From Mangrovibacterium diazotrophicum (GTDB lineage Bacteria > Bacteroidota > Bacteroidia > Bacteroidales > Prolixibacteraceae), in assembly GCF_003610535.1 (NCBI RefSeq), contig NZ_RAPN01000001.1:3335320-3399319 (forward strand): a DNA stretch of 64,000 bases, read 5' to 3'. The notes below the pieces were generated by a model. The model had not been told where the DNA came from. It saw only the letters and a list, made by a program, of their open reading frames with translations, and did no database searches. How positions within the stretch are numbered: the first letter of the stretch is position 1; every line of letters starts with the position of its first letter. Position numbers and translations under genes: made by a program. This document shows, piece by piece, positions 15,969 through 47,768 of this stretch.

Positions 15969-15976
15969 TACTTTTG
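15969..15976 (+). promoter_or_regulatory. Candidate -7 box of the first cobalamin riboswitch operon
   Basis: TACTTTTG matches TAnnTTTG. The same eight bases stand before the second riboswitch at 21249. Transcription would begin just ahead of the aptamer. Confidence 0.55.
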
Positions 15977-15984
15977 AGCCAGTT

Positions 15985-16164
15985 TTCGGTGGCTTTGCTG
16001 CTTTCATTTAGCAAGAAGCAGCTGCCTTAATAAGGGAATCCGGTGCGAATCCGGAGCAGTCCCCGCTGCTGTAAACCTCGTAATACTTTCTGTACCATCG
16101 CCACTGTTCCGATTGCAATCGGGATGGGAAGGCCGCAGAAAGGAGGTGAGCCAGAAGACCTGCC
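15985..16164 (+). ncRNA. Cobalamin riboswitch 1
   Basis: The conserved aptamer words appear in order. GGGAATCCGGTG and AATCCGG are followed by CCCCGCTGCTGTAAACCTC, then GGGAAGG, and finally the B12 box GAGCCAGAAGACCTGCC at 16148-16164. This element represses downstream genes when adenosyl- or other cobalamins bind. A conserved hairpin follows at 16186-16205, which likely belongs to the expression platform. The next gene, a DUF71 ATPase, begins at 16262, followed by transport genes. Confidence 0.93.
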
Positions 16165-16173
16165 GCAAACAAC

Positions 16174-16205
16174 AAGTATTAACCGGATCTTCGGGGAACA
16201 AGATC
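16174..16205 (+). promoter_or_regulatory. Conserved post-aptamer element of riboswitch 1
   Basis: AAGTATTAAC (16174-16183) is followed by the stem GATCTT/AAGATC around loop CGGGGAAC. The same word and loop, with a different but still paired stem, stand after riboswitch 2, so this is a shared expression-platform module. Confidence 0.6.
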
Positions 16206-21248: not shown

Positions 21249-21256
21249 TACTTTTG
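21249..21256 (+). promoter_or_regulatory. Candidate -7 box of the second cobalamin riboswitch operon
   Basis: TACTTTTG, identical to the box before riboswitch 1, just upstream of the aptamer. Confidence 0.55.
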
Positions 21257-21257
21257 T

Positions 21258-21437
21258 CGCGGATTTGGTTCCAGCGATCCGGCAGTTGTCGGATCCGGAT
21301 GAAAAGGGAATCCGGTGTAAATCCGGAGCTGTACCCGCAGCTGTAAACCTCGGTAATCTTTCTGAAACCCCTGCCACTGTTTCCAAACAAGCGAGACGGG
21401 AAGGCATCAGAAAGAGAGGTGAGCCAGAAGACCTGCC
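21258..21437 (+). ncRNA. Cobalamin riboswitch 2
   Basis: The aptamer words GGGAATCCGGTG, AATCCGG, CCCGCAGCTGTAAACCTC and GGGAAGG are followed by the B12 box GAGCCAGAAGACCTGCC at 21421-21437. It precedes the BtuB-like receptor gene at 21544. It shares the promoter box and the downstream hairpin with riboswitch 1, suggesting the two units respond together. Confidence 0.93.
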
Positions 21438-21448
21438 ATAATCTTTTT

Positions 21449-21479
21449 AAGTATTAACAATAGCTTCGGGAATAAAGCT
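21449..21479 (+). promoter_or_regulatory. Conserved post-aptamer element of riboswitch 2
   Basis: AAGTATTAAC (21449-21458) is followed by AGCTT (21462-21466) pairing with AAGCT (21475-21479) around CGGGAATA. It corresponds to the element at 16174-16205. Confidence 0.6.
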
Positions 21480-37911: not shown

Positions 37912-39240
37912 TTATTTGATGATTGTGATTCGACGCACGCGAATGTCTTCGAGTGGCCGGAAGTCGCTATCGACGGCGACTGCATTAATTTTGTCGGCTA
38001 CATCCATTCCTTCGGTCACTTCGCCGAAAATGGTATAACTGCCATCAATGTGTGGCGCACCGCCAATGGTTTTGTACATCCGGCGTTGTTCTGGAGTGAA
38101 TTTGTAACCCGTTTCTTTGGATATTTCATCCAGTTCGAGGTCGGAATATTTTCGGCCGGTTACGATGTAGAATTGAGAGCCATCGGAGCGGCGCTTGCTG
38201 TTCCCGCGATCCGGTTTTCGAGGAGAACCAATCACACCCCGTTTGTGAAACAAGCCGGACACAACATGGGCCGGGAGTGTGTAGCCGGGGCCTTTCCACC
38301 CGACGACATCGGTTTTACCGGCATAGCGCGTGTCGGCGGCACCACTTTGGATGCAGAATCCTTTGATCACGCGATGGATGAGCAGGCTGTCGTAATAGTT
38401 TTCTTTTACCAGGGCGATGAAATTATCACGGTACTCCGGAGTTTCGTTGTAGAGGCGGATCCTGATGTTGCCCATGTCAGTTTCAATCAGCAAGCCCTTT
38501 ATTTTTTTATTCGCCTCGCTTGTTGCCCGGTCAGCCGAAGATTTCAGCTGATCCAATGGTTGCGGTGTAGTGTTGGCTTTCGCCATCATTGCGAGGACGA
38601 GGTCGGAGGGAATCACGAGGTTCTGGTTTTCGTAATCAATCACGTCGGCGTAACCCAACCCGATGCATTTTTCACCGATAAAAACAGGCGTACCGTAAGT
38701 TTTGGAGCGGAATTGGTTTGTAACCAGGTAGCGCATGGAGCCAGCAACATTGCCGTGTTTGGTGACTTTTCCGTTGTGCAGCGGAAGCGCATTTCCCTGC
38801 GGCTTGGTGAGGTAGATGCTTTTTTGCAGGCTCGGAGCAGTGTTATTTTCGAGCGGAATTGCGGCCCGATGGATTCCCTTCACTTTCAGCAAAACCAGGT
38901 CGTTGATCCGGTCGACGGCAACAAAGCCCTCAATCTTGTATTTCTTTTCTTCATCCCAGGGAACAATAACTGCGTTCGTGGCTTCAATGACGGGAGTAAG
39001 CCGACTGGCGATCAGGTTGCTATCCACGAAGAAAGCAGTTTCACTTTCGAGGAACCGTGATTGGTCGAAGCTTTCAATTTGAACAATCGAAGGAACATAC
39101 TGCAGGTAGTCGACCTGGCTCTTGGTTTTTGTGGCTGGTGTTTCCGGATTCGCCTTTTCATCTGCCTTTTGAGGGCCTGAAGAGCAGGCGGCGAGCGTTG
39201 CCAGTGCAATAAGAACATATATTCTTTTCAAAACGATCAT
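37912..39240 (-). CDS. Lipoprotein: degenerate trypsin-like domain fused to a cyclophilin
   Basis: The 442-residue protein has a lipobox signal (IALATLAAC, Cys19). Residues about 55-225 resemble the HtrA/trypsin fold (FFVDSNLIASRLTPVIEAT, EGFVAVDRINDLVLLKV, GTPVFIGEKCIGLGYADVI). The catalytic residues are not intact. The usual H-V is replaced in ASRLTP, the aspartate is kept in R-I-N-D, and G-N-S-G is S-K-T-Y-G. Residues 248-442 are a cyclophilin with IHRVIKGFCIQSG near 290 and GSQFYIVTG near 355. It probably binds or isomerises prolines in periplasmic or outer-membrane proteins. It is the third gene of a four-base-overlapping cyclophilin operon. Confidence 0.82.
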   Translation of the reverse strand: MIVLKRIYVLIALATLAACSSGPQKADEKANPETPATKTKSQVDYLQYVPSIVQIESFDQSRFLESETAFFVDSNLIASRLTPVIEATNAVIVPWDEEKKYKIEGFVAVDRINDLVLLKVKGIHRAAIPLENNTAPSLQKSIYLTKPQGNALPLHNGKVTKHGNVAGSMRYLVTNQFRSKTYGTPVFIGEKCIGLGYADVIDYENQNLVIPSDLVLAMMAKANTTPQPLDQLKSSADRATSEANKKIKGLLIETDMGNIRIRLYNETPEYRDNFIALVKENYYDSLLIHRVIKGFCIQSGAADTRYAGKTDVVGWKGPGYTLPAHVVSGLFHKRGVIGSPRKPDRGNSKRRSDGSQFYIVTGRKYSDLELDEISKETGYKFTPEQRRMYKTIGGAPHIDGSYTIFGEVTEGMDVADKINAVAVDSDFRPLEDIRVRRITIIK

Positions 39241-40049
39241 TGGATGATTTTAACGGTGATTTTCACGTCGGTCAGTGGGCGATTGTTTTCGTCAACTTTC
39301 AGTTCGGCAATTTTATCAATCACATCGAAACCAGAGATGCATTCTCCAAAGATGGTGTATTTGCCATCCAGATCGGGGTAACCACCAACGGTTGTATAGG
39401 CCTTTCGTTGTTGCTCGTTGAATTCCAATACATTTGGGTTGAGCGCCATTTTAGCATTGATGTCGCTTTTCACCCGGTCGGCAATTTCACGAAACTCGTC
39501 AACCTTGTTTTCCTCCTTCAGTTGTTTAAGCTGCGCCTTGATTTCGGGCGTGTAAACTTCTTTGATAATTTTTTTCCGGATGGGACGATTCACGGCCATT
39601 TCCATGGTGTCCAGTTCACCTTCAGTAAAAACCTGGCCTTTCACAACGTAAAACTGCGAAATATCCGACTGTTTAAACGGATTGACTTCATCGGGCTGAC
39701 GAGGGGCGCAGAGGGCTCCTTTTTTGTGAATATGTCCAGGTACAATTTCATCATCTACCGTGTGATCGGGTGACCCGTAACCAATTCGTTTTCCGGGAGG
39801 TGCGTTGCGTGACGATCTGGATCCACCTTGAATCAGGAAATTCTGAATAACCCGGTAGAAAAGTGTTTCGTTGTAGTAGCCTTCGCGTGCCAGCTGCATA
39901 AAAGCGTCGCGGTGTTTTGGGGTGTCGTTGTAAAGGCGAAAACGCATCGTCCCAAAGTTCGTTTGTATTTCTACAAGGTGGTCAACCTGGTTTTGCGCAA
40001 TGGCCGAATGGAAAAAGAAAAAGCTTACAGCTATCAGGAAATACTTCAT
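39237..40049 (-). CDS. Secreted cyclophilin-type peptidyl-prolyl isomerase
   Basis: The 270-residue protein has a signal (MKYFLIAVSFFFFHSAIAQ) and a cyclophilin fold. TNFGTMRFRLYNDTPKHRD is at residues 30-48, FYRVIQNFLIQGGS at about 63-76 and DISQFYVVKGQ near 130. Phe-Tyr-Arg, where F-H-R is common, keeps the catalytic arginine. About 80 residues rich in Lys and Glu are inserted between the Q-F-Y strand and the C-terminal GGYPDLDGKYTIFGE segment. It overlaps both neighbouring genes by ATGA, so all three are co-translated. Confidence 0.88.
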   Translation of the reverse strand: MKYFLIAVSFFFFHSAIAQNQVDHLVEIQTNFGTMRFRLYNDTPKHRDAFMQLAREGYYNETLFYRVIQNFLIQGGSRSSRNAPPGKRIGYGSPDHTVDDEIVPGHIHKKGALCAPRQPDEVNPFKQSDISQFYVVKGQVFTEGELDTMEMAVNRPIRKKIIKEVYTPEIKAQLKQLKEENKVDEFREIADRVKSDINAKMALNPNVLEFNEQQRKAYTTVGGYPDLDGKYTIFGECISGFDVIDKIAELKVDENNRPLTDVKITVKIIQ

Positions 40050-40867
40050 TTTAAAACTTTCACTTTCATGGTTACGTTTTGCACTGGTCGGTCGAATTGG
40101 TCTGTTTCAACCGCAGCAATTTTATCCAACACATCAAACCCTTCTATCAACTCGCCAAAAACAGTGTAGCCGCCGTCGAGCGACGGGTAGCCCCCAATTG
40201 TCTTGTATACCTCCCGTTTCTCGGGCGAAATTTTGTAAGGGGCGGCTTCGGCAGCCTTTTGAGCAGCCAATTCTTTGATCTCAGCAATCCGAACATCAAA
40301 ACTATCGCGCTGACCAGCTTGCATCAGTTTATTCAGTTCTGCCTTGTGTTCGTTAAAAACAGCCTGGTTGATTTGCTGAGCCTGTCGATTATTCATTTCA
40401 ATCTCAAGTGAGTCCAATCCGGCATCGGTAAATGTTTTTCCCTGGACGATGTAGAATTGAGAGCCGGAAGATCGTTTTTCGGGATTTACATTGTCGCCTT
40501 TTCGGGCTGCAGCCAACACTCCTTTTTTGTGGAAGAATGCCAGATTGATTTCAGCTGGGATCGTGTAATCAGGGCCACCGTTTCCCAAACGTTGACCGGA
40601 CGGTGCATTTTTTGACTGCGGGTCGCCACCTTGGATCATAAAATGATTGATAACCCGGTGGAACAGCAAATCATCGAAATAGCCTTCCTGTGCCAATTTG
40701 ATGAAATTATCACGGTGCTGAGGTGTTTCATCATACAGCAGAAAAACCATCTTCCCGAAATTAGTATCGATTTCTATTTTTTGTCCTTCTTTTTTGTCGG
40801 CACCACCGGCGCACGAAACCTGAAATAACAGGAGAATCAGAAGAATTGAGTTAAAAATTTTTGTCAT
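40046..40867 (-). CDS. Lipoprotein cyclophilin-type peptidyl-prolyl isomerase
   Basis: The first gene of the operon encodes 273 residues with lipobox LFQVSC (Cys19). The cyclophilin core is intact: LLFHRVINHFMIQGGDPQSKN near residues 64-84 (catalytic Arg), SSGSQFYIVQGKTF near 130 and GGYTVFGELIEGFDVLDKIAAV near 235-256. An insertion of about 80 helical, charged residues (for example RQAQQINQAVFNEHKAELNK) is shared with the next gene. These insertions could be chaperone-like arms, as in periplasmic PpiD or SurA-like folders; that is inference. Confidence 0.88.
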   Translation of the reverse strand: MTKIFNSILLILLLFQVSCAGGADKKEGQKIEIDTNFGKMVFLLYDETPQHRDNFIKLAQEGYFDDLLFHRVINHFMIQGGDPQSKNAPSGQRLGNGGPDYTIPAEINLAFFHKKGVLAAARKGDNVNPEKRSSGSQFYIVQGKTFTDAGLDSLEIEMNNRQAQQINQAVFNEHKAELNKLMQAGQRDSFDVRIAEIKELAAQKAAEAAPYKISPEKREVYKTIGGYPSLDGGYTVFGELIEGFDVLDKIAAVETDQFDRPVQNVTMKVKVLK

Positions 40868-43028: not shown

Positions 43029-43895
43029 ATGAAAAAATTACTGTTAATCTTGTGTCTGTTACCTCTGATAGGTGTAGCACAAGAAGCCGCAGATTCAACT
43101 AAAGTTTGGAAGAGCGGTGGAAATATTTCTCTTAACTTCAGTCAGGTGTCTTTGTCGAACTGGGTTGCCGGAGGTAAGAGTTCTGCGTCTGGAACCTTCT
43201 TGGTCAACTTGTTTGGCAATTACGAAAAAGGAAAAGTAAGCTGGGAGAATAGCCTGGATTTAGGTTACGGTCTTTTAAAAGAATCAGACAGCAAGCTGGT
43301 TAAATCAGATGATAAGATTGACTTCAGCTCCAAATACGGATACAAAGCCTCGGGTCATCTTTATTATTCAGCGTTATTTAATTTTAAATCTCAATTTACC
43401 GACGGGTATAAGTATCCGGATCGCGATAATCCGATTTCTCGTTTTCTGGCGCCTGCTTACCTGACTTTAGCCTTGGGTCTCGATTACAAACCAGATGATC
43501 ATTTTTCATTGTTCTTTTCTCCCTTAACCGGAAAACTTACAGTTGTTGCAGACGATAGCTTGTCGACTGCAGGAGCTTTTGGTGTTGATCCCGGAAGTAA
43601 AACAAGATGGGAGCTCGGTGCCTATGTGAAAACAGCGGTAAAATATGAGGTCTGGAAGAATGTGACTTTCGAGTCAAAATTTGATATTTTCTCGAACTAT
43701 CTGGATCAGCCCCAGAATATGGATGTCAACTGGGATGTTACCATTAATATGAAGGTAAATGACTACTTGTCTGCAAATCTCATCACAAATTTAATCTACG
43801 ACAACGACATCAAAATAGAGGATAGTGATGGTTCGATGGGGCCAAGAGTTCAATTTAAAGAATTATTTGGGGTTGGATTGAACGTAAAATTCTAA
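43029..43895 (+). CDS. DUF3078 outer-membrane protein
   Basis: The 288-residue protein has a signal peptide (MKKLLLILCLLPLIGVAQ). The DUF3078 start is WKSGGNISLNFSQVSLSNWVAGGKSSASG near residues 27-55. A beta-rich pattern of alternating hydrophobic residues ending in aromatic-rich strands (LFGVGLNVKF) is consistent with an outer-membrane beta-barrel. Function is unknown. It is co-transcribed with the MscS-type gene. The 1.56 kb downstream hold the five-unit RNA array. Confidence 0.83.
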   Translation: MKKLLLILCLLPLIGVAQEAADSTKVWKSGGNISLNFSQVSLSNWVAGGKSSASGTFLVNLFGNYEKGKVSWENSLDLGYGLLKESDSKLVKSDDKIDFSSKYGYKASGHLYYSALFNFKSQFTDGYKYPDRDNPISRFLAPAYLTLALGLDYKPDDHFSLFFSPLTGKLTVVADDSLSTAGAFGVDPGSKTRWELGAYVKTAVKYEVWKNVTFESKFDIFSNYLDQPQNMDVNWDVTINMKVNDYLSANLITNLIYDNDIKIEDSDGSMGPRVQFKELFGVGLNVKF

Positions 43896-43940
43896 AATTT
43901 GATCATTAAAATAAGTCATTCGGTTCCTGAAATAGCTTAT

Positions 43941-44016
43941 TTGTACAGTAGAGTTTGCTGTTTGCACAATGGCATTGGCTTTGGCTTGACAGGTTTCGTT
44001 TCGTTACTTAAATTTG
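43941..44016 (+). promoter_or_regulatory. Control region of RNA unit 1: dyad, -33 and -7
   Basis: TTGTAC (43941-43946) and GCACAA (43964-43969) are 17 bases apart. TTG (43986-43988) is the -33 word and TAAATTTG (44009-44016) is the -7 box. Although this is the most diverged promoter of the five, the -7 consensus and the dyad spacing are kept. Confidence 0.7.
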
Positions 44017-44018
44017 AA

Positions 44019-44129
44019 ATGCTTTTAGAATATACCACGTATAGTTAAACCAGTTTTATTTTTCTCTTTCATTCCACTCTTAAGCGCACAAGCATTCCAA
44101 GCCGGTATCCCTTACCGGCTTATTTTTTT
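44019..44129 (+). ncRNA. Small RNA, unit 1
   Basis: The core begins ATGCTTTTAGAATATACC and is followed by a pyrimidine-rich stretch (TTTTTCTCTTTCATTCCA). The 5' hexamer ATGCTT can pair with AAGCAT near 44090. The terminator stem is GCCGGTA/TACCGGC (44101-44107 with 44113-44119, AA/TT extension) followed by a T run. The first ATG opens a nine-codon frame (MLLEYTTYS). Start of transcription is estimated, not measured. Confidence 0.75.
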
Positions 44130-44286
44130 TCCAAAATTTAAGGTTTTCAACACAATCTTTTTCATCTCAAGTGATATTTCTAAAGAAAGTTATGGAGGTG
44201 ATTTTACCTGTTTCCCATTGTTTTCGGGCTATACAACAGGATGCCGAATAGTCAAAAGTGCTATTTTGTGTGCTGAAACCGTTCGT

Positions 44287-44362
44287 TTGAACAGTAGAAT
44301 AAATGATTCGTACAATGAGGGGAAATCGTGTTGACTTGAATGGAGGCGATTACTTAACTTTG
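44287..44362 (+). promoter_or_regulatory. Control region of RNA unit 2: dyad, -33 and -7
   Basis: TTGAAC (44287-44292) and GTACAA (44310-44315), 17 bases apart, then TTG (44331-44333) and TAACTTTG (44355-44362). The dyad ends 39 bases before the -7 box, as in units 1 and 3. Confidence 0.75.
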
Positions 44363-44364
44363 TT

Positions 44365-44475
44365 ATGCTTTTAGAATATACCACGTATAGTTAAACCAGT
44401 TTTATTTTTCTCTTTCATTCCACTCTTAAGCGCACAAGCATTCCAAGCCGGTATCCCTTACCGGCTTATTTTTTT
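44365..44475 (+). ncRNA. Small RNA, unit 2
   Basis: Core identical to unit 1. Terminator stem GCCGGTA/TACCGGC, hairpin 44445-44467 including the AA/TT ends, followed by a long T run. The nine-codon frame is retained. Confidence 0.78.
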
Positions 44476-44638
44476 GTCCAAATTTCAGGCTTTTCAAAAC
44501 AATTATTTTAATGGCAAGTGATATAAAAATTTTCACGAGAGGTTGCCTGACAATTCAATCAATTCCCCTTTGTTTTCGGACGATTCAGCGCTTTTTCCAA
44601 TAGCTGAAACAATCGTTCTACCTGTTCAGATTTGTGGT

Positions 44639-44714
44639 TTGAACAGCGGAATGGATGATTCGTACAATAGGGTGAAATCGTGTTGACTTGAATGGTAGTG
44701 ATTACTTAACTTTG
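44639..44714 (+). promoter_or_regulatory. Control region of RNA unit 3: dyad, -33 and -7
   Basis: TTGAAC (44639-44644) and GTACAA (44662-44667), 17 bases apart, TTG (44683-44685) and TAACTTTG (44707-44714). Confidence 0.75.
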
Positions 44715-44716
44715 AA

Positions 44717-44824
44717 ATGCTTTTAGAATATACCACGTATAGTTAAACCAGTTTTATTTTTCTCTTTCATTCCACTCTTAAGCGCACAAGCATTCCAAGC
44801 CGGTAGTCCTTACCGGCTTTTTTC
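44717..44824 (+). ncRNA. Small RNA, unit 3
   Basis: Same core. Terminator stem GCCGGTA/TACCGGC with a changed loop (GTCCT instead of TCCCT), hairpin 44797-44819. Confidence 0.78.
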
Positions 44825-44982
44825 TTGCCTTTTTCCCAGTTGTTGCTCACGGTTCACTTTCTTTTAGTCTTGCAAAGAGAATTTGAGGAGTTGAACGGAT
44901 TTGCGTAGACAATGCTTCTTTGGCAAGTTTTTATAGGGATTTAATCACTGATAGTTGCTCTCCGAGTTGCGAGAGGTGTTGT

Positions 44983-45059
44983 TTGTACAGCGGATATGGT
45001 AGTTCGTACAATCAGTGGGAAATCGTGTTGACTTGAATGGTAGTGGTTGCTTAACTTTG
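44983..45059 (+). promoter_or_regulatory. Control region of RNA unit 4: dyad, -33 and -7
   Basis: TTGTAC (44983-44988) and GTACAA (45006-45011), 17 bases apart and a perfect inverted repeat; TTG (45028-45030) and TAACTTTG (45052-45059). The dyad is 40 bases before the -7 box. Confidence 0.75.
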
Positions 45060-45061
45060 TT

Positions 45062-45171
45062 ATGCTTTTAGAATATACCACGTATAGTTAAACCAGTTTT
45101 ATTTTTCTCTTTCATTCCACTCTTAAGCGCACAAGCATTCAAGCCGACAGATTCCTGTCGGCTTCTTTTTT
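45062..45171 (+). ncRNA. Small RNA, unit 4
   Basis: Same core with one C missing before the terminator. The stem has changed to GCCGACAG/CTGTCGGC (45143-45150 with 45155-45162). Both strands changed together, so pairing is preserved. Confidence 0.78.
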
Positions 45172-45316
45172 GTCTAAAAAATTCGTTTCAAGGATCTTAG
45201 AAGTTTCGATTTTACTCCATTTTTCGGGAAATAGTGATTTTGAACTTGAACTCATGTCTTGAGATTTATGATTCATGGTTCAAAAGTTAGCCTTCATCCA
45301 ATTAATTAAAGTTTGC

Positions 45317-45348
45317 TTGACTTGAATGGTAGTGGTTGCTTAACTTTG
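45317..45348 (+). promoter_or_regulatory. Promoter of RNA unit 5, lacking the dyad
   Basis: TTG (45317-45319) and TAACTTTG (45341-45348) are present with the conserved sequence TTGACTTGAATGGTAGTGGT in between. The TTGWAC/GYACAA dyad is absent at the expected position, so this copy may be controlled differently. Confidence 0.7.
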
Positions 45349-45350
45349 TT

Positions 45351-45460
45351 ATGCTTTTAGAATATACCACGTATAGTTAAACCAGTTTTATTTTTTCTCT
45401 TTCATTCCACTCTTAAGCGCACAAGCATTCCAAGCCGGCAGATTCCTGCCGGCTTTCTTC
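45351..45460 (+). ncRNA. Small RNA, unit 5
   Basis: Same core with one extra T in the T run. The stem is GCCGGCAG/CTGCCGGC (45434-45441 with 45446-45453), again compensated on both sides. Its 3' end abuts the stop codon of the convergent S4-domain gene. Confidence 0.75.
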
Positions 45461-45665
45461 ATTTTATAAGAATTTGTTGGCCGTCAAAATCAACGATGTC
45501 GCCAGCGCGTATTTTGGCTCTTTTCCGAAATTCGACCTCTCCGTTGAGCTTGACAAATCCATCGTCAACAACAAGTTTCGCCTGCCCTCCGGATTCAACC
45601 AGGTTTAAGAGCTTAAGTAGTTTTATGAGTTCTATATATTCTGAGGTCAATTCAAATTCAATCAT
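45459..45665 (-). CDS. S4-domain RNA-binding protein (YbcJ-like)
   Basis: The 68-residue protein is a stand-alone S4 domain: YIELIKLLKLLNLVESGGQAK near residues 10-30, then VDDGFVKLNGEVEFRKRAKIRAGDIVDFDG near 33-62. It is the form of S4-like RNA-binding proteins such as YbcJ and RlbA. It probably binds structured RNA. It is the last of three minus-strand genes and ends against RNA unit 5. Confidence 0.87.
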   Translation of the reverse strand: MIEFELTSEYIELIKLLKLLNLVESGGQAKLVVDDGFVKLNGEVEFRKRAKIRAGDIVDFDGQQILIK

Positions 45666-46532: not shown

Positions 46533-47768
46533 ATGATAAAACGACTAACCTTTATTCTGCTGCTAATACCTGTTTGTTCATTTGCACAAGAAAAACTCTT
46601 GACACTTCAGGCCTCAGTCGATTCCGCATTTGCCAATAATGCCGTGTTGAATGAAGCCAATGCCATCATGGAGCAAAAACGCAATGAATGGCGTACGATG
46701 ACGGGAATAGAGGCGCCCGAAATCAGCTATTTTGAAGAAGGTCGTAACAGTTCGGCAACCAAACCCTTTGAAGAGCGCAGGTGGACCGTTTCTCAAACCA
46801 TCGATTTCCCTTTAACAACAGTCTATCGGTTAAAGGCGATTGGTGATGAAGCAAAAGCTCTGGAATACCAAATCCAGGCTCAGCGAAACAATATTCGCGC
46901 AGAAGTAAAATCGCGTTATATCGATATTCTGTACGCTTCGCGGTTGCAGGATTTGGCTGAAAAGCAAAAGCAACTGGCTGACGAACTCTATAAAGCGGTT
47001 TATACCAAGTTTGAAACCGGGATGGGAAACGGAATTGACCTGACAAAAGCTGAGCTGCAGGTTGCCGAGGCGGAGAATTTTCAGAGTGAGGCAGAACGAA
47101 TGCTGCACATGGGGAGATACAGCCTGTTTCGGTTGATGGGGATGGAGATTGCAGATATCAGCTACAGCATTCAGTTTGTCGATACATTGAGTAGCCGCGA
47201 AGTGGTTGTTAGTCAGATTACCGCTTTGTCGGTATTGCATGAACAACCGGAATACCTGGCGGCAATGGCGGCCTACGAAGCCAGTCAAAATAAAATCCGT
47301 GAGGCTAGGAGTAACATTCTGCCTGATATTCGATTCAACTTGTACAAACAGAATTACGGAGATGGTTTTAAGTACAATGGCTTTGAGGTCGGTTTGAGTA
47401 TTCCGATTTGGCTACCGTTTGAGCAAAGCGGAAAGATTAGGATGGCCAAGGCGTACCAGGATGAGATTGAATGGCAGCAGAAAGGCATTGAGCAGGAAAT
47501 GAAGGAGCGGATCGAACACGCCTGGCACAGCTACAGCTCCAGTAAGCAGATTATCGATCGCTATAACCAAACGATGAGCGCCAAATCAGCCCGTTTGCAG
47601 CAGTTGAGTATTGATGCTTACCGTTTGGGTGAGATTGACCTGATGAACCTGATTTTAGCCCAGCAAACTTATTTGGATAACCAGCGACGTTACCTTGATG
47701 CCCTTCACGATTTCTATTTGCAGCTTACCCAGCTGGAGAAATATTTAAACCTTGAATTAGTTTATTAA
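46533..47768 (+). CDS. TolC-family outer-membrane efflux protein (CusC/CzcC type)
   Basis: The 411-residue protein has a signal peptide (MIKRLTFILLLIPVCSFAQ). It has the duplicated coiled-coil/beta pattern of the outer-membrane efflux family (OEP), for example QKQLADELYKAVYTKFETGMG near residue 150 and RLQQLSIDAYRLGEIDLMNLILAQQTYLDNQRRYLDALHDFY near 350-390. It forms the exit duct for a tripartite efflux pump. It is the first gene of an operon with an adaptor and an RND pump of the heavy-metal type. Confidence 0.9.
   Translation: MIKRLTFILLLIPVCSFAQEKLLTLQASVDSAFANNAVLNEANAIMEQKRNEWRTMTGIEAPEISYFEEGRNSSATKPFEERRWTVSQTIDFPLTTVYRLKAIGDEAKALEYQIQAQRNNIRAEVKSRYIDILYASRLQDLAEKQKQLADELYKAVYTKFETGMGNGIDLTKAELQVAEAENFQSEAERMLHMGRYSLFRLMGMEIADISYSIQFVDTLSSREVVVSQITALSVLHEQPEYLAAMAAYEASQNKIREARSNILPDIRFNLYKQNYGDGFKYNGFEVGLSIPIWLPFEQSGKIRMAKAYQDEIEWQQKGIEQEMKERIEHAWHSYSSSKQIIDRYNQTMSAKSARLQQLSIDAYRLGEIDLMNLILAQQTYLDNQRRYLDALHDFYLQLTQLEKYLNLELVY

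Follow-up and report, generated by a model that had tools for sequence, protein, structure and literature searches.

The genome of Mangrovibacterium diazotrophicum, a marine member of the Bacteroidota, carries a tandem array of five copies of a core of about 79 nt, located at positions 44021-45463 of the window (the whole 64,000-nucleotide stretch of DNA that was analysed). Read from its sequence, the array is a set of near-identical genes, each with its own promoter and terminator, of the multi-copy sibling small RNA (sRNA) kind. The RNA, kept almost unchanged, is probably an undescribed gene-regulating RNA, and most likely represents a new family of a known kind, the sibling sRNAs. We give a probability of roughly 0.7 to the reading in which five sibling genes encode one trans-acting, regulator-controlled, Hfq-independent base-pairing sRNA, its transcription, regulator and targets being predicted. 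Compared with the preliminary description of this DNA, the upstream direct repeats, a sixth copy and the relatives are new.

Arrangement of the array

The five units follow each other at start-to-start distances of 346, 352, 345 and 289/290 nt. The core is bounded as ATGCTTTTAG...AAGCATTC, and the five cores are the same except for one additional T in the T-run of unit 5; in unit 4 one C is absent just 3' of the core, before the terminator. The five copies, their spacing and these two differences are as the preliminary description had them. In units 1-4 the upstream and promoter stretch is repeated together with the core, forming a 190-nt family with 75-92% identity.

All five promoters lie on the plus strand and contain TAnnTTTG (TAAATTTG once, TAACTTTG four times), with a TTG 20-21 nt further up. 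The promoter of unit 1 (43986-44016) reads TTG-N20-TAAATTTG, and those of units 2 (44331-44362), 3 (44683-44714), 4 (45028-45059) and 5 (45317-45348) read TTG-N21-TAACTTTG. Placement of TAnnTTTG at -12 to -5, as described for Flavobacterium psychrophilum (PMC9723704), gives predicted starts at 44021, 44367, 44719, 45064 and 45353, within 2 nt of those proposed earlier. The predicted plus-strand transcripts, with both ends deduced, are 107-111 nt long with the conserved segment internal, and extend over 44021-44129 (unit 1, terminator stem 44099-44121), 44367-44475 (unit 2, stem 44445-44467), 44719-44825 (unit 3, stem 44797-44819), 45064-45171 (unit 4, with the missing C, stem 45141-45164) and 45353-45463 (unit 5, with the extra T, stem 45432-45455). 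The region holds six terminator-like sites, five of which are the array terminators, against 1.2 expected in shuffled sequence. Thus the box before each copy and the intrinsic terminator after it, both claimed previously, are found at all five units. A single longer transcript lacking internal starts was considered on the sequence alone, in which every unit has a promoter and a terminator.

The array directly follows a DUF3078 gene (43029-43895, plus strand), and the tail of unit 5 overlaps the stop end of a convergent S4-domain gene (45459-45665, minus strand) that consistently accompanies the sRNA locus in relatives. Between the end of the former at 43895 and the latter there is no frame of at least 60 aa, in agreement with the gene-free stretch reported before. 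Each promoter and terminator could together form a cis-acting leader or attenuator for a downstream gene, but the next gene is the convergent S4 gene and the next plus-strand gene starts only at 46533, so that a riboswitch or attenuator was rejected as very improbable. Elsewhere in the window, three adjacent minus-strand frames (37912-40867) resemble peptidyl-prolyl isomerases, being cyclophilin-like by eye.

A sixth, solo copy is present in the M. diazotrophicum genome (C1:1951010-1951118, minus strand), with a katG-type peroxidase gene on one side and a Na/H exchanger on the other. It has its own promoter and upstream repeats, and its core reads like the array core. The surroundings of the solo copy also include a LytS-type kinase about 5 kb away and a LytTR regulator gene about 6 kb away (L171:12372-14147).

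Distribution and synteny

Homologues were accepted in 19 genomes of the family, representing seven genera and nearly always adjoining the same S4-domain gene. A degenerate core pattern finds five stretches in named genomes, belonging to Mangrovibacterium marinum, M. lignilyticum, Sunxiuqinia indica, S. elliptica and a Sunxiuqinia sp. MAG; M. marinum (G001), M. lignilyticum (G002) and the MAG (G003) were placed in the genus of the window, Mangrovibacterium, which NCBI files under Prolixibacteraceae. With at most eight candidates scored per genome, blastn matches 7 of 100 genomes, the own genome included. A covariance model (R1), built from 17 sequences with the terminator stem as its only structure and run with stricter filters, reaches E <= 0.001 in 22 of 140 family genomes, again counting the own one, and in 2 of 295 genomes of the order, namely the own genome and a weak half-match in G311 that was dropped on reading. 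On reading, 17 of the 22 family genomes were accepted, made up of four genomes from the own genus, six from g21, five from g16 and one each from g23 and g4. The search of relatives with a covariance model, suggested in the preliminary description, did yield homologues in the family. The R1 hits in G005, G009, G015, G040 and G053 have no shared core, do not lie beside the S4 gene and were dropped. Inspection of 22 S4-gene flanks with the filters off recovered G006 and G018 and added G024 (g22) and G022 (g20); weaker candidates in the flanks of g3, g7 and g11 are uncounted, as are possible S4-adjoining members at L132 (G005), L134/L135 (G040/G009) and L137 (G013).

The number of copies is 5+1 in the own genome, four in M. 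lignilyticum, two in the MAG and two, on two contigs, in M. marinum. Each other accepted R1 genome has one copy, and in G022 and G024 a single locus was seen; more than one copy was observed exclusively in the genus of the window. In 17 of the 19 genomes the locus also contains the S4 gene; in G046 this gene lies on the same contig, 1.7 kb away, and in G177 it was not seen in the locus, which ends with the contig. The upstream DUF3078 gene also occurs in those g1, g21 and g23 loci that cover that side, and was not found in the g16 and g4 loci. The earlier claim of independent small-RNA units gains support from these homologues, which at one syntenic place in seven genera keep a promoter, an unpaired core and a compensated terminator, and from the solo copy, which is dispersed and carries a promoter of its own.

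Six near-identical copies in one genome might also be conserved DNA repeats or a mobile element (MITE/REP-like) devoid of RNA function. Against this, the place adjoining the S4 gene is the same across genera, and the promoter and a compensated terminator are kept. Moreover, unit 2 has no blastn match in phage or plasmid records at E 1e-5, and the exact core pattern is absent from viral contigs. Given the fixed synteny and the empty phage, plasmid and viral searches, the mobile repeat was rejected as highly improbable.

Conservation of the RNA

Between the own genome and M. lignilyticum, the MscS, DUF3078 and S4 genes are 78.9, 72.3 and 75.4% identical at the DNA level. By contrast, in the 79-nt core of the five array copies and the four M. 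lignilyticum copies the sole difference from base 2 onwards is the extra T of unit 5, and the chance of no change in 78 nt at the rates of the flanking genes is 1e-11 to 9e-9. The spacers of the two genomes, compared in 12 pairs, are within -4.1 to +3.4 points of shuffled sequence, and the six pairs within the array are 59-73% identical, versus 58-66% in shuffles; the array spacers have thus diverged strongly, though not wholly. The argument made previously, that spacers diverged further than cores and so point to selection on the RNA, is borne out by near-chance spacers beside a near-unchanged core in this comparison. Because both species share one core form, purifying selection appears to explain the identity of the cores better than homogenisation within each genome.

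The terminator stem is paired in 100% of 131 cells, 11 of which are changed on both sides, whereas slid controls are 16-53% paired; the structure was read from the same sequences as those tested. Across genera, the most constant parts are the unpaired CU-rich run and a CACAAGC stretch. The 5' part of the RNA varies freely, other members having unrelated sequence there. A 5' hairpin was considered as a defining element and rejected, being mostly not significant among the 12 members folded (shuffles as good: 5/500 for M. marinum, 27/500 for G25 and at least 83/500 for the rest).

The array might instead encode a small peptide, since ATGCTTTTAGAATATACCACGTATAGTTAA can be read as a 9-aa frame and a 15-aa frame starting with ATGAAAGAG is present on the reverse strand (both by eye). 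Yet the forward ATG precedes the predicted start by 2 nt, and two M. lignilyticum copies have GTG or TTG in its place; other members have unrelated sequence instead of this 5' part; and in relatives the reverse frame is altered by substitutions and length differences (by eye). A peptide on either strand was rejected on these grounds and is very improbable.

Promoters and upstream direct repeats

Of 26 promoters, 24 have an exact -7 box TAnnTTTG and 24 have TTG at N19-21; the later-added members of g22 and g20 have the exact box and no TTG at that distance. Upstream of the promoters are direct repeats with a 21-nt period, composed of two boxes of about 10 nt and sometimes, by eye, of three. In the array they lie on the plus strand at 43940-43970 (unit 1, one mismatch to TTYRWACARN12TTYRTACAAT) and, with no mismatches, at 44286-44316 (unit 2), 44638-44668 (unit 3) and 44982-45012 (unit 4). 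The repeat of unit 5 (45272-45301) is degenerate, agreeing at 13 of 18 positions and falling outside the matches with 0-1 mismatch.

The periodicity is also seen with a consensus-free score, which over 23 promoters is 155 at spacing 21, compared with 105-137 at 24 other spacings (11-35) and 134 in the best of 500 mononucleotide shuffles. These 23 were taken from 30 collected promoters, omitting the near-duplicates u1, u3-u5, G2c, G2d and g16e and including the uncounted g3 and g7 loci. At spacing 21, 13 of the 23 have a repeat matching at 7/9 or better, as against 0-7 at other spacings. Restriction to accepted members (21 promoters) gives 142 at spacing 21 versus 97-128 elsewhere (best of 500 shuffles 124), and one promoter per genus, picked after inspection, gives 53 versus 31-45 (best shuffle 43); kinship among promoters is controlled by the other spacings alone. 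The Mangrovibacterium consensus scores 366 at spacing 21 over 26 promoters, against 284-326, this consensus being partly drawn from the same promoters. Low repeat scores (11-12 of 18) occur in six of the 26 (G177, G48, G58, g16a, g16d and g16e), and in some promoters the best 9-mers differ from the TTYRTA boxes.

This layout resembles the operators of LytTR regulators, which consist of 9-11-nt repeats with 11-13-nt spacers, as described for YpdB (PMC4847170) and RcoM/CoxC (PMC11347149). LytTR sites share no common consensus (PMC4847170), RcoM uses triplets TTCNNGCA (PMC11347149), and the proximal repeat of AgrA is centred near -60 (PMC4227749), compared with about -56 for unit 1, counted from its predicted start. 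The boxes upstream of the sRNA vary between genera. The sRNA promoters display repeats of LytTR-type length, spacing and upstream position (9-11-nt repeats, 11-13-nt spacer), which would suit a putative regulator of this class.

Throughout the M. diazotrophicum genome, the repeat pattern has 143 matches with at most three mismatches, against 97 for a reversed control. Every one of the five matches with 0-1 mismatch belongs to an sRNA copy, and the pattern was itself drawn from these copies. The genome contains 15 LytTR matches. None of these 15 loci has repeats at 15/18 or better, a level reached by five of the six sRNA promoters of the genome, and at 14/18 the LytTR loci hold seven matches, or 0.14 per kb versus a background of 0.17 per kb.

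Candidate targets

The conserved unpaired segment, UUUUUCUCUUUCAUUCCACUCUUAAGCGCACAAGCAUUC, would be placed between a weak, variable 5' hairpin and the intrinsic terminator. Within it, UCUUUCAUUCC is the complement of GGAAUGAAAGA and could thus address AUGAAA starts; g16, g4 and g22 lack the CAU of this presumed anti-start segment. A CU-rich target-binding segment, as put forward in the preliminary description, is plausible, with one strong complementarity in its favour: a 34-nt, 91% match on the opposite strand in M. lignilyticum, the only non-copy match among the candidates scored, which lies between a sigma54-like element and the start of a Cbp1-family adhesin gene. Pairing with this leader is predicted at -44.4 kcal/mol (0/300 shuffles as good), and with the adhesin leader of the own genome at -32.0 kcal/mol (4/300).

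In the other genomes the pairing with the adhesin leader is not significant, with 85 (G003), 248 (G001), 25 (G025), 177 (G023), 103 (G037), 278 (G058) and 279 (G048) of 300 shuffles as good. The pairing site is not conserved and is common to only two genomes. Upstream of all nine orthologs of the Cbp1-type adhesin gene, the sequence TGGCAC or TGGCAT, N5, TTG is found (L018/L019, G002:C9:1764086-1765043; L020-L027), which is presumably a sigma54-type element, and an NtrC-like frame lies upstream of the adhesin in M. lignilyticum (by eye).

Gene starts were ranked (n=328) against a background of 327 starts from 20 stretches of contig C1 and the window, with energies that ignore accessibility. 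The M. lignilyticum adhesin leader ranks 1, and the own leader 9 with the whole RNA and 4 with the segment, within the top 1-3% of the sampled starts. The start of a DUF4272 gene ranks 20 (whole RNA) and 1 (segment) in the own genome, above the adhesin leader on the segment, with 0/200 shuffles as good; the protein was found in none of seven relatives, in a search run without a positive control. FecR starts, whose pairing is present in two species, rank 34 and 18 in the own genome and 33 and 5 in M. lignilyticum (whole RNA and segment, respectively), and are not significant (25/200 and 18/200 shuffles as good). Allowing up to three mismatches, there are 13 non-copy sites complementary to the segment in the own genome and seven in M. 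lignilyticum (reversed control one and four), of which 2/13 and 1/7 are on the first ATG of a frame of more than 200 codons. A 24-nt antisense match to the sRNA also lies before a frame that we take to be RteC-like in S. indica (L015, G037:C33:62510-62533). By complementarity, the 5'UTR of the Cbp1-type adhesin gene is the best candidate target. Since its site is found in two genomes only and DUF4272 outranks it in the own genome, confidence has been lowered both in the overall reading and in that of an adhesin switch.

The RNA might act mainly by binding and titrating a protein rather than by pairing with mRNA. A candidate partner would be an RRM protein, by analogy with RbpB of Bacteroides, which binds and counteracts FopS (PMC11697453). 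In favour of this are the multiple gene copies, as would suit titration, the length of the conserved segment and its lack of pairing, the RRM proteins present in all four genomes of the genus that were examined, and a target pairing that is at best weakly conserved. However, the 34-nt near-complement in the M. lignilyticum adhesin leader is on the right strand, and the single copy in R1-scored genomes outside the genus suits titration less. We regard this mode of action as unlikely and prefer base pairing.

Relation to known small RNAs

Among the 4227 families of Rfam, none reaches its gathering score in the array, the best being MicC (29.2 bits, gathering 90, E 0.078), in keeping with the earlier statement that no recognised family fits. 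The only Rfam matches of the window are two cobalamin riboswitches well above the gathering score (15970-16181 and 21249-21454, plus strand). No description of the RNA appears among the papers listed for Mangrovibacterium/Sunxiuqinia, for Prolixibacteraceae/Marinilabiliales or for Bacteroides, multicopy and sibling sRNAs, subscription papers and preprints lying outside this coverage; the first group makes no mention of small RNA, and the second names neither taxon. To our knowledge, little work has been done on base-pairing sRNAs of Bacteroidota other than those of Bacteroides and Flavobacterium.

LhrC of Listeria is CU-rich and controls an adhesin, and Qrr of Vibrio is sigma54-driven and Hfq-bound. 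Both are named in PMC11697453, where the control of an adhesin by LhrC also appears in a reference title, and like the array they are sibling sRNAs from several genes. Unlike them, the array has no Rfam family match at the gathering score.

We know of no sequence relation between the array sRNA and the csRNAs of Streptococcus. The latter are five highly similar sRNAs with a direct repeat for the response regulator CiaR (PMC3091779), and share with the array RNA an unpaired conserved region between two stem-loops that is complementary to start regions. They belong to a different phylum, and the CiaR repeat is TTTAAG-N5-TTTAAG with period 11, whereas the array has boxes of about 10 nt with period 21. 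Closer in phylogeny are FopS and GibS of Bacteroides, which are likewise multi-copy paralogous Bacteroidota sRNAs with canonical sigma-ABfr promoters and pairing near start codons (PMC11697453). FopS has 14 members of about 65-70 nt at several loci, with the seed at the 5' end (PMC11697453). Compared by description, the array RNA differs in being tandem, longer (107-111 nt predicted), with an internal conserved segment and a direct-repeat operator.

Proposed mechanism and implications

In the proposed mechanism, a LytTR-type or similar regulator would bind the upstream direct repeats, whose 21-nt period resembles such an operator. Each gene would be transcribed from its sigma-A promoter (TTG-N20/21-TAnnTTTG), the copies firing together once the regulator is active, and copy number would raise dose and speed. 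The unpaired segment would then pair with mRNA leaders or start regions, most likely blocking translation, and would do so without Hfq. An Hfq match (PF17209) was found in 0 of 41 genomes, the own one included, while 5 of 14 control genomes matched.

A more speculative extension, which we consider doubtful, is that a LytTR-type system in Hfq-less marine Bacteroidota drives tandem identical sRNAs to silence a sigma54-driven surface adhesin, as a lifestyle switch of the Qrr/csRNA kind that evolved independently. For the family as a whole, the fixed synteny, the graded copy number (6, 4, 2, 2 and, as scored, 1 elsewhere) and the recognisable operator would offer a handle on why sRNA genes multiply, and this sRNA family would also let one ask how pairing works without Hfq.
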